DNA of 46,825 nt. Source: Brevundimonas sp. GTDB lineage: Bacteria > Pseudomonadota > Alphaproteobacteria > Caulobacterales > Caulobacteraceae. The notes beneath the pieces are model-generated. The model made no database searches. It saw only the letters and a program-made list of their open reading frames with translations, and had not been told where the DNA came from. Numbering within the stretch: position 1 is the first letter of the stretch; each line of letters begins with the position of its first letter. The position numbers and the translations under genes were made by a program. The DNA lies in NCBI RefSeq assembly GCF_013912005.1, contig NZ_JACESB010000020.1, positions 1 through 46,825 of the forward strand, in the 5' to 3' direction. Positions 12,922-38,159 of the stretch are shown here, one piece after another.

Positions 12922-14033
12922 ATGCCGAGCTCCAGATAGGTCAGGGCGAACAGGGCGTCGAGGAAGATGATGGCGAAGATCGCCTGCACCACGGCGGCGG
13001 TCACCCGGCGGCCGAGGCTCTCGACGTCGCCCGCCACCGCCATCCCCTGCCGGCAGCCGATGCCGGCGACGATGATGGCGAAGACCGGGGCCTTCGACAG
13101 GCCGACGAACAGGTGGTTGCCGATGTCGGGAATGTCGACCATGCGCTGGATGAAGAAGGCCGGCCCCAGCGACAGCTGGCTCCAGGCCACCAGCAGCCCG
13201 CCCAGCAGGCCGGCCAGCATGCCGAGGAAGGTCAGCAGCGGCAGCATCAGCACCAGCGCCGCCAGCCGCGGGATGACCAGCGCCTGGAACGGATTGACGC
13301 CCATCACCTGCATGGCGTCGATCTCCTGGTTCATCTTCATCGACCCCACCTCGGCGGCGAAGGACGAGGCCGAACGGCCGGCCAGCAGGACGGCGGCGAT
13401 CACCACCGCGAACTCGCGCAGCACCGAGATGGCGATCAGCTCGACCGCGAACACGTCGAAGCCGAACTGGCTGAGCAGGTCGGCCCCGATGAAGGCCACC
13501 ACCGCGCCGATGAAGAAGCTGGTCACCACCACGATCGGAATGGCGTCGAGGCCGGACCGCTCGGTCTGGCTCACCCACGCCGGCCAGCGAATGCGCCCCG
13601 GGTGTCTGAGAGCGGCGCCCGCGGCGACGATCAGCCGGCCGAGGAAGGCCAGCGACAGGGTCATCTCCGCCGCGATGTCCTGCACGCCCCGGCCGATCTT
13701 GGCGAAGCCGCGCACCCAGCCCGGCGAGCGGCGCGGCGGCTCGGCGCTCTCGCGCTCCAGCCGTTCGACCATGGCGTAGATGCGGCCCGCCTCCGGCCGC
13801 TGCGTCCAGGCGGTCTCCGGCAGCACGCAGTTGCTGGCCTGCACCAGCGCCAGCGCGCCGGCGGTGTCGAAACGCCCCAGCGCGGTCAGGTCCACCGCCG
13901 CCACGCAGCGCTGCTCCAGCTCGCGGTCCAGCCGCTGCGAAATGCGGCCGAGCTCGGTTGCGGTCCAGTCGCCGGTCAGACGCAGGGTCAGATCCGGTCC
14001 GCCGTCCTCGATCTCGAATCCCGCTGCGGCCAT
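12918..14033 (-). CDS. mlaE: STAS-MlaE lipid ABC transporter permease
   Basis: 371 residues from the ATG at 14033, which has an AGGTAGGGG-type ribosome-binding site; in-frame ATG codons upstream give a non-conserved extension. The first ~100 residues look like a STAS domain (LTLRLTGDWTATEL... RFDTAGALALVQ), fused to the MlaE permease with five to six helices and the conserved EVGSMKMNQEIDAMQVMGVNP segment. The STAS-MlaE fusion is common in alphaproteobacteria, where it replaces a separate MlaB. It is the first gene of a leftward operon of mlaE, mlaF, mlaD, lipoprotein, kinase. Confidence 0.94.
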   Translation of the reverse strand: MAAAGFEIEDGGPDLTLRLTGDWTATELGRISQRLDRELEQRCVAAVDLTALGRFDTAGALALVQASNCVLPETAWTQRPEAGRIYAMVERLERESAEPPRRSPGWVRGFAKIGRGVQDIAAEMTLSLAFLGRLIVAAGAALRHPGRIRWPAWVSQTERSGLDAIPIVVVTSFFIGAVVAFIGADLLSQFGFDVFAVELIAISVLREFAVVIAAVLLAGRSASSFAAEVGSMKMNQEIDAMQVMGVNPFQALVIPRLAALVLMLPLLTFLGMLAGLLGGLLVAWSQLSLGPAFFIQRMVDIPDIGNHLFVGLSKAPVFAIIVAGIGCRQGMAVAGDVESLGRRVTAAVVQAIFAIIFLDALFALTYLELGI

Positions 14034-14151
14034 GCCCCTACCTAGATTGCGCCGTCCGCATTGCCTATCCGGGAGAAACGGCGAAGCTGCGGCGTGCAGC
14101 AGAACGCCGCCGCACCGTATTCGTTCAGCCACGCTTTCAGAGGCTTGCCGC

Positions 14152-15585
14152 TCAGAGCAGCGACCGCGCCTGCACCAGGTCGGCGACGAACCGCTCCCGC
14201 TCAGCCGCCTTCGCCGCCGCGTCGGGGATACGCAGCAGATAGGACGGGTGCACCGTCAGCAGCGCCGTGGCGCCGTCGGCCAGCGGCACGGGCCGTCCCC
14301 GCTCCTTCGTCACCGCCGGCTTGCGCCCCAGCACCCCGAGCCCGGCCGTCGCGCCCAGCGCCAGCACCACCTTCGGCTTGACCAGCCGCCGCTCGGCCTC
14401 CAGCCACCAGCGGCAGGCGCTCACCTCCCCCGCATTGGGGGTCTTGTGCAGCCGACGCTTGCCGCGCGGCTCGTGCTTGAAGTGCTTGACCGCATTGGTC
14501 ACGAACACGTCCCCGCGGTCGATCTCCGCCGCCTCCAGCGCCGCGTCCAGCACCTTGCCGGCCGGCCCGACGAAGGGATGGCCGGCCAGATCCTCCTGGT
14601 CCCCCGGCTGCTCGCCGACGATCATCAGCCGCGCCCGTCTCGGTCCCTCGCCGCACACCCCCTGGGTCGCGTCGCGCCACAGCGGACAGCGGCGGCAGGC
14701 CTGGACGGCGGCGTCCAGCTCGCCGAGCGTCGAGGGGACGAAGCCCTCCTCGAAGCTGGCGTCGCGGGCCAGTCGCGACAGGGTGCGGTCGAGGCGGCGG
14801 TTGGGTTCGGGAGCGGGGGCGGCGACCATGGCCTCGGTCCGAACCGCCGACTGCGCCACCAGTTCCGGGATCAGCGCCGCCTCCGGCAGGTTCTTCCAGT
14901 AGCGCTTCGGCATCTCGGAACGCATGGCCCGGGTCTTCAGCCGCGCCGGATTGAAGGTCGAGGCGTAGTAGGTGCGCCAGAATTCCTCCATCTCGTCGGC
15001 GTCCGGGGCCATGTCGCGCGTCGCCGGGGGACCGAAGCCCAGACGCTCCGTGTCCCAGCGCGCGGTCCCGTCCGGCGTCAGGATCGACCACCGCATCGGC
15101 GTGAAGCGGCGGACGAAGAAGGGCGCGGTGATCTCCAGCACCCGGTGCGCCGGTTCGAACCAGGCGACCCAGGCCTCGCCCTGCCCGTCGTCCACCTGAC
15201 GGAAGCGCACGAAGGCCTTCATCTTGTGCGAGGCGCGCGAGACGTTCTTCGCCCGCTCCAGCGCGTCGGCGACGTCCCGGTCCGACGCCACCCGCATCAG
15301 CTCCGGCGCGTCGCGGAGCCGCCACAGCAGCCGGTACAGCAGGTCGAAACGATCGGCCGACCGGTGCAGCACCACCGCCTGCGCCGTCTCCACGAAGGCC
15401 CGCGGCACGGAGAAGGCGGCGCCGCCGGGCTCCGGCGGAGGCGCGGCGTCGTCGAACAGCCCGCCCTGCCCCGCGCCGACCACGAAGCGCGCCTCGGCCG
15501 GGGCCACGCCCGCCTCGCGGAAGGCCCGGGCCGCCTTCCGCCAGCCCTCGAAATCGGTCTCGCCCGCCAGCGATGCGACCGCCAT
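14152..15585 (-). CDS. UdgX-type uracil-DNA glycosylase with N-terminal DUF4130-like domain
   Basis: 477 residues. The N-terminal half (about 1-235) resembles the DUF4130 domain of the 'putative DNA metabolism/repair' family. The C-terminal ~190 residues are a family-4-like uracil-DNA glycosylase: CRRC (297-300), GEQPGDQEDLAGHPFVGPAG (about 324-343), TNAVKHFKHEPRGKRRLH (363-380), SACRWW with Cys391, and HPSYLLR with His446. KRRLH (376-380) matches the KRRIH loop of UdgX, whose His forms a covalent bond with the sugar after uracil removal. The Cys residues probably hold an iron-sulfur cluster. Its ATG overlaps the stop of the radical SAM gene, so the two are coupled. Trapping rather than turnover is inferred from the KRRLH motif. 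Confidence 0.9.
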   Translation of the reverse strand: MAVASLAGETDFEGWRKAARAFREAGVAPAEARFVVGAGQGGLFDDAAPPPEPGGAAFSVPRAFVETAQAVVLHRSADRFDLLYRLLWRLRDAPELMRVASDRDVADALERAKNVSRASHKMKAFVRFRQVDDGQGEAWVAWFEPAHRVLEITAPFFVRRFTPMRWSILTPDGTARWDTERLGFGPPATRDMAPDADEMEEFWRTYYASTFNPARLKTRAMRSEMPKRYWKNLPEAALIPELVAQSAVRTEAMVAAPAPEPNRRLDRTLSRLARDASFEEGFVPSTLGELDAAVQACRRCPLWRDATQGVCGEGPRRARLMIVGEQPGDQEDLAGHPFVGPAGKVLDAALEAAEIDRGDVFVTNAVKHFKHEPRGKRRLHKTPNAGEVSACRWWLEAERRLVKPKVVLALGATAGLGVLGRKPAVTKERGRPVPLADGATALLTVHPSYLLRIPDAAAKAAERERFVADLVQARSLL

Positions 15586-16826
15586 CAGAACAGGCTCAGC
15601 TGCACCGGCGCCGCCGGCGGCGCCAGCCGCGCCCGCAGGTCCGCCGCGTCGGTCAGGCCGCCCGGCGTCCAGTCGAGCGCGGTGATGAACGGCCGCACCT
15701 TGTCGACCCCCCGGCACAGGCGCGCCACGTCCTCCAGCCGCAGGGTGCGGTAGCGGCGCACCGACAGGATCCGGTCCACCGACTTCACCCCCAGCCCCGG
15801 CACGCGCAGCAGCATCTCCCGCGCAGCCGTGTTGACGTCGACCGGGAACAACTCGCGCCGGTTCAGCGCCCAGGCCAGCTTCGGGTCGACCGCCAGGTCG
15901 AGCATGCCGCCGGTCGCCGCCTCGCCGATCTCCGGCGCCGAGAAGCCGTAGAAGCGCATCAGCCAGTCGGCCTGGTACAGCCGGTGCTCCCGCATCAGCG
16001 GCGGCTTCTGCAGCGGCAGGGCGGCCGAGGAGTCGGGGATCGGGCTGAAGGCCGAGTAATAGACCCGGCGCAGGCCGTAGCCGCCGTACAGCGCGGCGCT
16101 GCGCTGCAGGATCTCCGTGTCCGGCGCCCCGTCGGCGCCGACGATCAGCTGGGTGCTCTGCCCCGCCGGCGCGAAGCGCGGCGGCCGCGCCCGGTCCCGC
16201 TTCTGCGGCTTCGCCGCCTCCACCTTCAGCCGCACCTGGCCCATGGCCTTCTTGATGACGCCGACGTCCTTCTGCGGGGCCAGCCGCCGCAGGGCCTCGT
16301 CGCGCGGCAGCTCGATGTTGGCCGACAGCCGGTCGGCGTAGAGGCCCGCCGCCTCGACCAGCTTCGGATCGGCTTCCGGGATCAGCTTCAGATGGATGTA
16401 GCCGCGGAAGTCATGGACCTCGCGCAGGGTCCTCGCCACCCGCACCAGCTGCTCCATGGTGTAGTCGCCGGAGCGGATGATCCCCGACGACAGGAACAGG
16501 CCCTCAATGTAGTTGCGGCGGTAGAACTCCAGCGTCAGCCGGACCACCTCGTCGACCGAGAACCGCGCCCGCTCCACGTTCGAGGACGCGCGATTGATGC
16601 AGTAGGCGCAGTCGTAGATGCAGAAGTTGGTCAGCAGCACCTTCAGCAGCGACACGCATCGCCCGTCCGGCGTGTAGGCGTGGCAGATGCCCATGCCCTC
16701 GGTCGAGCCGACTCCGCGCCCCCCGGTCGAGTCCCGCTTGCCCGTGCCCGAGGAGGCGCACGAGGCGTCGTACTTGGCCGCGTCGGCGAGGATCGAGAGT
16801 TTGCGTCGGAGGTCCAGCTGCGCCAT
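15585..16826 (-). CDS. Radical SAM protein, putative DNA modification/repair
   Basis: 413 residues. The radical SAM cluster motif is NFCIYDCAYC (Cys69, Cys73, Cys76). The C-terminal part has a helix-hairpin-helix (LLRVPGLGVKSVDRILSVRRY), a non-specific DNA-binding element, and the protein ends in VQLSLF, which fits the QL[S/D]LF sliding-clamp peptide. This layout fits the 'putative DNA modification/repair radical SAM protein' family that is nearly always paired with the DUF4130/UdgX protein encoded next. The chemical reaction is not known. The start ATG lies two bases after a LexA box, with no Shine-Dalgarno sequence in front, so translation is probably from a leaderless transcript. Confidence 0.92.
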   Translation of the reverse strand: MAQLDLRRKLSILADAAKYDASCASSGTGKRDSTGGRGVGSTEGMGICHAYTPDGRCVSLLKVLLTNFCIYDCAYCINRASSNVERARFSVDEVVRLTLEFYRRNYIEGLFLSSGIIRSGDYTMEQLVRVARTLREVHDFRGYIHLKLIPEADPKLVEAAGLYADRLSANIELPRDEALRRLAPQKDVGVIKKAMGQVRLKVEAAKPQKRDRARPPRFAPAGQSTQLIVGADGAPDTEILQRSAALYGGYGLRRVYYSAFSPIPDSSAALPLQKPPLMREHRLYQADWLMRFYGFSAPEIGEAATGGMLDLAVDPKLAWALNRRELFPVDVNTAAREMLLRVPGLGVKSVDRILSVRRYRTLRLEDVARLCRGVDKVRPFITALDWTPGGLTDAADLRARLAPPAAPVQLSLF

Positions 16827-16828
16827 CT

Positions 16829-16843
16829 GTTCGCATTATGTTC
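16829..16843 (-). promoter_or_regulatory. LexA (SOS) box of the radical SAM/UdgX operon
   Basis: The plus strand reads GTTC GCATTAT GTTC, an exact match to the GTTC-N7-GTTC operator known for LexA of alphaproteobacteria. It lies two bases upstream of the radical SAM ATG and covers the probable -10 element, so LexA would block transcription start directly. Confidence 0.85.
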
Positions 16844-16864
16844 CCCATCGGGAATGCGCGTCCA
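16835..16864 (-). promoter_or_regulatory. Probable sigma-70 promoter overlapped by LexA box
   Basis: On the minus strand TGGACG (16864-16859), an 18-base spacer and CATAAT (16840-16835) form a plausible -35/-10 pair. Transcription would start near 16828, two bases before the ATG at 16826, giving an essentially leaderless mRNA. The -35 match is modest. Confidence 0.5.
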
Positions 16865-16892
16865 GCGTGGCCGTTGCGGGCGATTTGTCGCG

Positions 16893-17819
16893 TCAGCGCA
16901 GGTAGTTGAGCAGCGACACCTGCCGCAGCTGGCTGATCACCTGGGCCGAGGCCTGGATCGCCACCTGGGACAACTGCAGGTCCGTCACCGCCTGCGCCAT
17001 GTCCGCATCGGTGCGGTCCGCGACGAGGGCGTCGAGCGAGGTCAGTTGCGCCTCGTGGGCCTTGGTGACGTCCTCGACCTGGTTGGCCATCGAGCCGGTG
17101 CGGGCCGTCTTGTCGATCACGCCGTTGGCGGCCTGTTCGAGCCGACCCAGCTGGGTCTGCAGGAAGGCCTTCTGCGCTTCGGTCATCTTGCCGGTCAGCG
17201 GGCCGGCGGCGCTGGCGTGATAGGTCTGGATGTCGCGCAGGATCGACATCACCTCGGTCCCCACCTCGTCGGCGAGGAAGCCCGTCTCCAGCGTCGTCCC
17301 CTCCGCCACCCGGCTGACCGTCTTCAGGGTGTCGTTGGCGAAGACCGACGCGACCGAGGGCGCCGCCGCCAGGTCGGCGAGGCTTTCGGCCGTCATCGGC
17401 GTGGTGTTCACCTTGGCGCCCGAGAACAGGTAGCCGCCCTGGTGGCGCATGTTCAGGCCGCCGCGGATGGTCTGGAAATGTCCTTCCAGCTCCTGCATCA
17501 GCGCCCCGCCGGAGTCCGTCGCCAGCACGCTGCCCACCGCCTCGCGCAGGCCGGCGATGCCGTCCCCGATCCGGTTCAGCGCCAGGTCCTGGGTCGTCAG
17601 CCGGGACGACACCGCCTCGCCGGTGTCGATGAACCCCTGGATGCGGCTCTGGGCGCCCTTCAGCGCGGTCAGGGTCTCCGACTGGCGCCCGAAGCCCGTC
17701 AGATCGGTCGCGTTCTTGTGGGTCGAGACGCGCTCCTGCGCCTCGACCGCGCGGGTCTGGGCCTTCATCAGGTCCAGCAGGGCCGACTGGTAGTTTCCGA
17801 AGGTGGCGACGCGGGTCAT
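16893..17819 (-). CDS. flgL: Flagellar hook-associated protein 3 (FlgL)
   Basis: 308 residues. The N-terminus (MTRVATFGNYQSALLDLMKAQTRAVEAQERVSTHKNATDL) and C-terminus (TDADMAQAVTDLQLSQVAIQASAQVISQLRQVSLLNYL) are the paired helices of flagellin-like hook-filament junction proteins. The middle has LNMRHQGGYLFSGAKVNTTP, typical of FlgL. It is exported by the flagellar type III system and caps the hook below the filament. Its ATG overlaps the flgK stop (TGATG). Confidence 0.93.
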   Translation of the reverse strand: MTRVATFGNYQSALLDLMKAQTRAVEAQERVSTHKNATDLTGFGRQSETLTALKGAQSRIQGFIDTGEAVSSRLTTQDLALNRIGDGIAGLREAVGSVLATDSGGALMQELEGHFQTIRGGLNMRHQGGYLFSGAKVNTTPMTAESLADLAAAPSVASVFANDTLKTVSRVAEGTTLETGFLADEVGTEVMSILRDIQTYHASAAGPLTGKMTEAQKAFLQTQLGRLEQAANGVIDKTARTGSMANQVEDVTKAHEAQLTSLDALVADRTDADMAQAVTDLQLSQVAIQASAQVISQLRQVSLLNYLR

Positions 17820-37910: not shown

Positions 37911-38159
37911 ATGGGTTCGGTGACGGGTTTCCCCGGCGTCGATCCGTCCGACGCGGCGGTCGGCGCCCGGCTGAGGCGATGGCGCGAGCAGCGCGGCATG
38001 ACGGTCGACGACCTCGCCCGCCTGATGGAGATCACGCCGGAGGAGGAGCGCCGCGCCGAGGCCGGGCGCGCCCACCTCGACAGCGCCTCGATCGCCGCCG
38101 CCACGGCCGCCCTGCGGCTGCCCCTGTGGGCGCTGGTCTCCGACACCCGCGCCTACTGA
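37911..38159 (+). CDS. Small XRE-type helix-turn-helix protein
   Basis: 82 residues with GGAGG eight bases before the ATG. One HTH_3 domain (VGARLRRWREQRGMTVDDLARLMEITPEEERRAEAGRAHLDSASIAAATAALRLP) and no other domain. Probably a DNA-binding regulator; targets unknown. Lies between the aldo/keto reductase and ubiD genes. Confidence 0.85.
   Translation: MGSVTGFPGVDPSDAAVGARLRRWREQRGMTVDDLARLMEITPEEERRAEAGRAHLDSASIAAATAALRLPLWALVSDTRAY

Follow-up and report, generated by a model that had tools for sequence, protein, structure and literature searches.

The present analysis concerns a two-gene operon on the minus strand (14152-16826) of a 46,825-nt stretch of Brevundimonas sp. DNA, contig NZ_JACESB010000020.1, which is referred to as a whole as the window. 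The operon consists of a gene for a radical S-adenosylmethionine (SAM) protein, followed by a gene for a fusion of DUF4130 to a UdgX-type uracil-DNA glycosylase (UDG). Judging from the operator sequence and its conservation, regulation of this operon by LexA as part of the SOS response is very nearly certain. The overall reading, that of an SOS cassette in which a lesion-processing core would be combined with a UdgX cap, appears quite likely, and the processing of DNA lesions by the radical SAM-DUF4130 core itself is favoured with less confidence.

A Predicted LexA Operator Overlapping a Predicted Promoter

The features on which the argument depends are the following:

14152..15585, minus strand: DUF4130-UdgX fusion gene (477 aa; TIGR03915 + TIGR03914)
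15583..15587, minus strand: TGATG stop/start overlap joining both genes, read from the sequence
15585..16826, minus strand: radical SAM protein gene (413 aa; TIGR03916 rSAM_link_UDG)
16829..16843, minus strand: predicted LexA operator GAACATAATGCGAAC (GAAC-N7-GAAC), exact match
16835..16840, minus strand: -10-like hexamer CATAAT within the LexA operator, from a consensus scan
16859..16864, minus strand: -35-like hexamer TGGACG, from a consensus scan (9 of 12 jointly with the -10)

The operator reads GTTCGCATTATGTTC on the plus strand and GAACATAATGCGAAC on the gene strand, and lies over the predicted promoter as the GAAC/GTTC-N7 direct repeat by which an alphaproteobacterial LexA box is recognised. 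It is the sole exact match within the window and ends 2 nt before the ATG at 16826. The arrangement TGGACG-N18-CATAAT (9 of 12) was the one sigma-70-like site returned by a scan of 14000-17300, with a shuffle mean of 0.1. The preliminary description of this locus had placed an exact LexA box over the probable -10 of a two-gene, TGATG-coupled operon; the motif match and the promoter scan bear out the former, and the sequence the latter. Shuffled versions of the window contained a mean of 0.66 exact boxes, with at least one in 51 of 100 shuffles; since chance matches are this common, the weight of the box rests on its position and its conservation.

Conservation of the Operator and Change of Motif

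In a genome scan from which the best 80 of 589 relatives were kept (all Alphaproteobacteria by genus, except L098, assigned only to Pseudomonadota), an exact box was found within 200 nt upstream of the radical SAM gene in 78 of the 80, and the other two, L088 and L127, each score 7 of 8. An even sample of 385 genomes of the class gave a similar picture: 25 exceed the TIGR03916 family cut-off, and 24 of these, the window included, have the exact box within 250 nt upstream (the miss, L035, reaches 6 of 8 at best). As a control, the box occurs in 6 of 562 regions upstream of other open reading frames (ORFs) of at least 200 aa within the 80 loci. Five of these six boxes belong to an ImuA-like ORF, to which the distance from the box start is 17 nt (the three of the five that were scanned gave 24-25 bits, below cut-off), so that the true background is still lower than 6/562.

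The ImuA-like ORFs preceded by these second boxes (L093:192, L100:211, L101:231, L110:222 and L111:555) lie about 2.4-2.8 kb from the radical SAM gene, on its upstream side; the spacing from box to ATG is identical to that in the operon of the window.

In the lineages outside the class considered here, the LexA motif is CTGT-N8-ACAG. The set comprises all 29 orthologues above cut-off that come from outside the class but from the same phylum; in the stretch scanned upstream, none of the 29 carries the exact GAAC/GTTC-N7 box, and 19, from 12 genera, carry an exact CTGT-N8-ACAG, a motif found in 1450 shuffles 9 times exactly and 171 times with one mismatch. On these sequences, the operon is predicted to retain a LexA operator while the motif itself differs between lineages. 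Conservation in orthologous operons had been named beforehand as a result on which the proposal would stand or fall, and it held (78/80, 24/25, and 19/29 with CTGT-N8-ACAG).

LexA-Type Boxes Elsewhere in the Host Genome

The host lexA gene carries the same box upstream: its coding match begins at G000:C40:38091, and exact boxes at 38011 and 38048 start 80 and 43 nt before it. The genome as a whole holds 73 exact matches versus 12 for the reversed pattern, which is a rough control only. When ten hand-picked ORFs downstream of boxes were profile-scanned, five gave a usable family, namely uvrA (truncated where the locus ends), ssb, a PA0069-family radical SAM protein, a cytosine methyltransferase and a weak ImuA (28 bits against a cut-off of 150); the remaining five gave no family or a weak irrelevant match. 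The PA0069-family gene (L007:1539-2609) has an exact box that begins 38 nt from its start and, from this position, may be a second radical SAM gene under SOS control in the host genome. Another exact box, at G000:C39:4892-4906 (L178), starts about 81 nt from the beginning of the DNA cytosine methyltransferase ORF.

Leader and Start Codon

From the end of the -10 hexamer at 16835, a 7-nt step would place the start of transcription 2 nt before the ATG at 16826. By eye, no Shine-Dalgarno sequence is found close to this ATG, and a GGGGA run 16-20 nt before it is too distant and lies upstream of the predicted transcription start. The promoter scan and this reading thus agree with the start point some two bases before the ATG, and the lack of a Shine-Dalgarno sequence, proposed earlier.

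Among the relatives, 74 upstream regions have a box in GAAC orientation near the gene, and 65 non-redundant ones were aligned on it. The commonest bases of the N7 spacer spell ATATAAT, each present in 45% to 91% of the regions, which suggests that the -10 hexamer tends to fill the spacer of the box; CATAAT, the best -10 hexamer of the window, sits two bases earlier than this register. A -10 matching at least 5 of 6 positions lies inside the box in 28 of the 78 boxed relatives. Counted from the start of the box, the first in-frame start codon falls at 16-18 nt in 41 of the 78, that is 1-3 nt past the box end, at 19-33 nt in 30, and farther away in 7. In many relatives the leader would therefore be expected to measure zero to three bases, and in others to be short. 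A leaderless mRNA, as claimed in the preliminary description, is plausible: the anatomy fits in the window and in about half of the relatives (41/78), and the support is of this anatomical kind. In Caulobacter, according to excerpts of PMC4117421, 375 leaderless mRNAs have been mapped.

The Constant Unit and Its Distribution

Among 149 genomes of Caulobacteraceae, the family indicated by Brevundimonas as the closest named relatives of the window, 78 match TIGR03916 and all 78 also match TIGR03915, the two sharing a contig within 666 bp in 76 of them; TIGR03915 is found alone in 2 genomes and TIGR03916 alone in none (two of the 80 TIGR03915 matches fall below cut-off). Across the 80 loci, DUF4130 occurs together with UdgX in 73, alone in 6, and neither is present in one (L071). 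The constant unit is thus the radical SAM protein with DUF4130, UdgX being a frequent fused part. Under a longest-ORF rule, the gene junction is a 1-nt overlap in 30 of the 80 relatives and a 4-nt overlap in 23.

In five loci (L098:4277-4765, L115:4310-4789, L125:4318-4797, L129:4285-4758 and L137:4305-4778) an ORF of 158-163 aa stands between the radical SAM gene and DUF4130; it matches Pfam Hemerythrin in L098 and L137, and is similar by eye in the other three. In Fulvimarina (L072:4865-5503), an ORF of the cytidine/deoxycytidylate deaminase type separates the radical SAM gene from the UdgX fusion, which is intriguing next to a protein that binds uracil. In the window, the operon is flanked by flagellar hook-associated genes and an MlaE-like transport operon, as judged by eye only.

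Matches also occur on plasmids (158 of 72,556 records, 142 of them called non-mobilizable), in viral contigs (2 relatives, from a pattern-limited scan) and in phage records (10 of 50,697). The exact box is present upstream in the two plasmid copies examined and in one of two viral-contig copies. One phage record, the 240-kb 'Acinetobacter phage MD-2021a' (L274, CAKLQH020000003.1), contains glyS and glyQ as well as the radical SAM gene, which is followed by a 'probable DNA metabolism protein' of 266 codons; the record looks like bacterial chromosome. A role in defence or an origin in phages was considered and set aside: neither operon protein matched a PADLOC family, viral contigs and phage records gave the counts above, and the phage record examined looks chromosomal.

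The Two Proteins

The radical SAM protein matches TIGR03916 with 551.4 bits against a cut-off of 343.5, and in Pfam it matches PF04055 (Radical_SAM) above cut-off and HHH_3 below it, the weak helix-hairpin-helix lying near residues 329-357. An alignment of its relatives (A1) reveals that the CX3CX2C motif at residues 69-76 (C69, C73, C76) is invariant, as are three extra cysteines ahead of it, Cys 23, 48 and 57. All six cysteines and His49 are kept in 27 of 27 aligned rows, the window included, a count that excludes L251, L268 and L270, for which the longest-ORF rule gave wrong-frame ORFs. A search with the structure model returned lipoyl synthase, HydE and biotin synthase as best fold matches, at 11-17% identity, while a sequence search of solved structures gave three matches, the best at E 0.43. 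In lipoyl synthase, the additional cysteines follow another spacing. In terms of the predicted model, the cysteine trio and the fold near lipoyl synthase and HydE are leads to the reaction. NCBIfam grades TIGR03916 as a 'hypoth_equivalog_domain' under the name 'putative DNA modification/repair', and no biochemical account of either the radical SAM or the DUF4130 proteins was found in the open-licence PubMed Central (PMC) literature, in agreement with the earlier statement that the radical SAM reaction is undescribed.

That the second gene encodes a UdgX-type protein, also proposed earlier, is confirmed by profile, sequence and fold matches, with the correction that it is not UdgX alone: DUF4130 is fused to it. 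TIGR03915/DUF4130 covers residues ~10-237 (214.5 bits, cut-off 112.25) and TIGR03914 UdgX residues ~239-473 (315.3 bits, cut-off 189.95), and Pfam reports DUF4130 and UDG. The NCBIfam trio TIGR03916/TIGR03915/TIGR03914 is therefore matched above its curated cut-offs without departure, the last two in one protein. The best matches of the UdgX part, both by sequence and by fold, are UdgX crystal structures. Its motif A reads GEQPGD, with Q326 present in at least 90% of 43 aligned sequences, and its R-loop GKRRLH aligns with GKRRIH of UdgX, R378 and H380 being invariant (43/43). By alignment, the UDG half is a UdgX homologue with the predicted cross-linking histidine, His109 of Mycobacterium smegmatis UdgX (MsmUdgX) corresponding to His380. 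Solved UdgX chains comprise 191-229 aa; here, the domain occupies the C-terminal portion of the 477-aa fusion protein, whose gene belongs to an SOS operon. The physiological role of UdgX is called largely unknown in passages of PMC10359453.

Relation to Reported Systems

Excerpts of PMC8565304 (2021) describe a Bacteroidetes COG1573-COG4277 operon with a uracil-DNA glycosylase and predicted SOS regulation, and state, with a citation of the Caulobacter SOS regulon, that a putative UDG-based system had been reported to be under SOS control in Verrucomicrobia and Alphaproteobacteria. As described there, that operon likewise has two genes, a UDG and predicted LexA control; in the operon of the window, the UDG is fused to DUF4130, and the -10 and the start codon are placed at or beside the operator. 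The placing of the pair in the DNA damage response by the preliminary description is supported by the conservation of the box, and for an operon of this kind SOS control was already on record. COG4277 we take to be the radical SAM family of this operon; if this is so, SOS control is already known for such operons. The statement on SOS regulation of COG1573-COG4277 operons reportedly goes back to da Rocha 2008 and Erill 2016. In the open-licence PMC literature, no account was found of the conservation of the operator with a change of motif in Proteobacteria, of the placing of -10 and start codon relative to the operator, or of the cysteine trio; a term search of PMC13384398, PMC6120978, PMC4211646 and PMC12700426 gave no passage on the operon. 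As far as the available excerpts go, a Streptomyces LexA table includes an unnamed radical SAM gene, and a gene bearing the name of the family treated here rose upon desiccation in Acinetobacter Tol 5.

Proposed Mechanism and Alternatives

In undamaged cells, LexA would bind GAAC-N7-GAAC over the -10, just before the start codon, and block RNA polymerase. Upon damage, RecA would trigger LexA cleavage, and one mRNA with little or no leader would direct the TGATG-coupled synthesis of both proteins. The radical SAM protein and DUF4130, whose co-occurrence and adjacency are observed, would form the core unit. The former probably works on damaged DNA via a 5'-deoxyadenosyl radical, with help from the helix-hairpin-helix region near its C terminus and perhaps with a second metal site on Cys23/48/57. 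By analogy with His109 of MsmUdgX, the UdgX domain would excise uracil and covalently cap the abasic site through His380, and such capping would keep uracils that arise by deamination or misincorporation safe during the action of SOS polymerases and recombination. A bolder version, which is rather doubtful, regards the core as a new DNA-repair enzyme, an SOS-switched radical SAM protein with two clusters, the additional one on Cys23/48/57, removing or converting a lesion that no known pathway handles, with UdgX as the covalent uracil cap at the same sites.

Several observations weigh against the reading of an SOS cassette with a lesion-processing core and a UdgX cap. UdgX is not constant: it was not found in the flanks of L104, L119, L127, L136 and L139, it is perhaps cut off in L129, where DUF4130 lies at the very end of the locus, and the flank of L071 has neither domain. 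Outside the class, five of the 29 orthologues, three of them from one genus, have no near match to CTGT-N8-ACAG, and five more, all from one genus, have one mismatch and weigh little, given the 171 shuffles that reach this level. Just 22 of the 78 relatives have a promoter that scores 9 of 12 or better and places its -10 within the box, the recA gene of the host genome has no exact box (7 of 8 at best), and residues 23-50 are poorly modelled in the predicted structure of the radical SAM protein.

Among the alternatives, it is unlikely that the radical SAM protein is an SplB-like photoproduct lyase reversing a UV thymine lesion. SOS control would suit UV repair, but TIGR03916 is the sole NCBIfam match at E 0.001, in a library that should include spore-lyase models; moreover, the best fold matches are the three enzymes named above, and three extra invariant cysteines, which to our knowledge SplB lacks, precede CX3CX2C. 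SplB is also absent from the 50 fold-match rows listed, which decides nothing on SplB. A decidedly improbable alternative is that the core serves as a release arm for UdgX, reversing or trimming the UdgX-DNA adduct or clearing the capped abasic site. The fusion of UdgX to DUF4130 and its coupling to the radical SAM gene would fit, and UdgX adducts need resolving, for which RecA-dependent pathways or proteases are proposed in passages of PMC10359453; however, in five relatives whose flank is long enough to reveal it, the core occurs without a detected UdgX, and the second gene of the Acinetobacter contig has just 266 codons. It is likewise very doubtful that the function of the module is DNA modification or marking instead of repair, UdgX then reading or removing the mark. 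The NCBI name allows for it, and sulphur-inserting and methylating enzymes are among the radical SAM enzymes that carry a second cluster, but SOS control and the patchy presence (25 of 385 class genomes) suit damage processing better, and the PADLOC families gave no match to either protein. Finally, a box arisen by chance, with the operon outside LexA control, is next to impossible, because, although about half of such windows contain a box after shuffling, its conservation in relatives and the other LexA motif outside the class reject it.

Taken as an SOS cassette, the operon has a compact and testable design in which operator, -10 and start codon overlap. The change of motif outside the class indicates selection keeping the operon damage-inducible, and alphaproteobacterial and other proteobacterial sequences together would place an uncharacterised radical SAM enzyme and a self-trapping UdgX in the DNA damage response.
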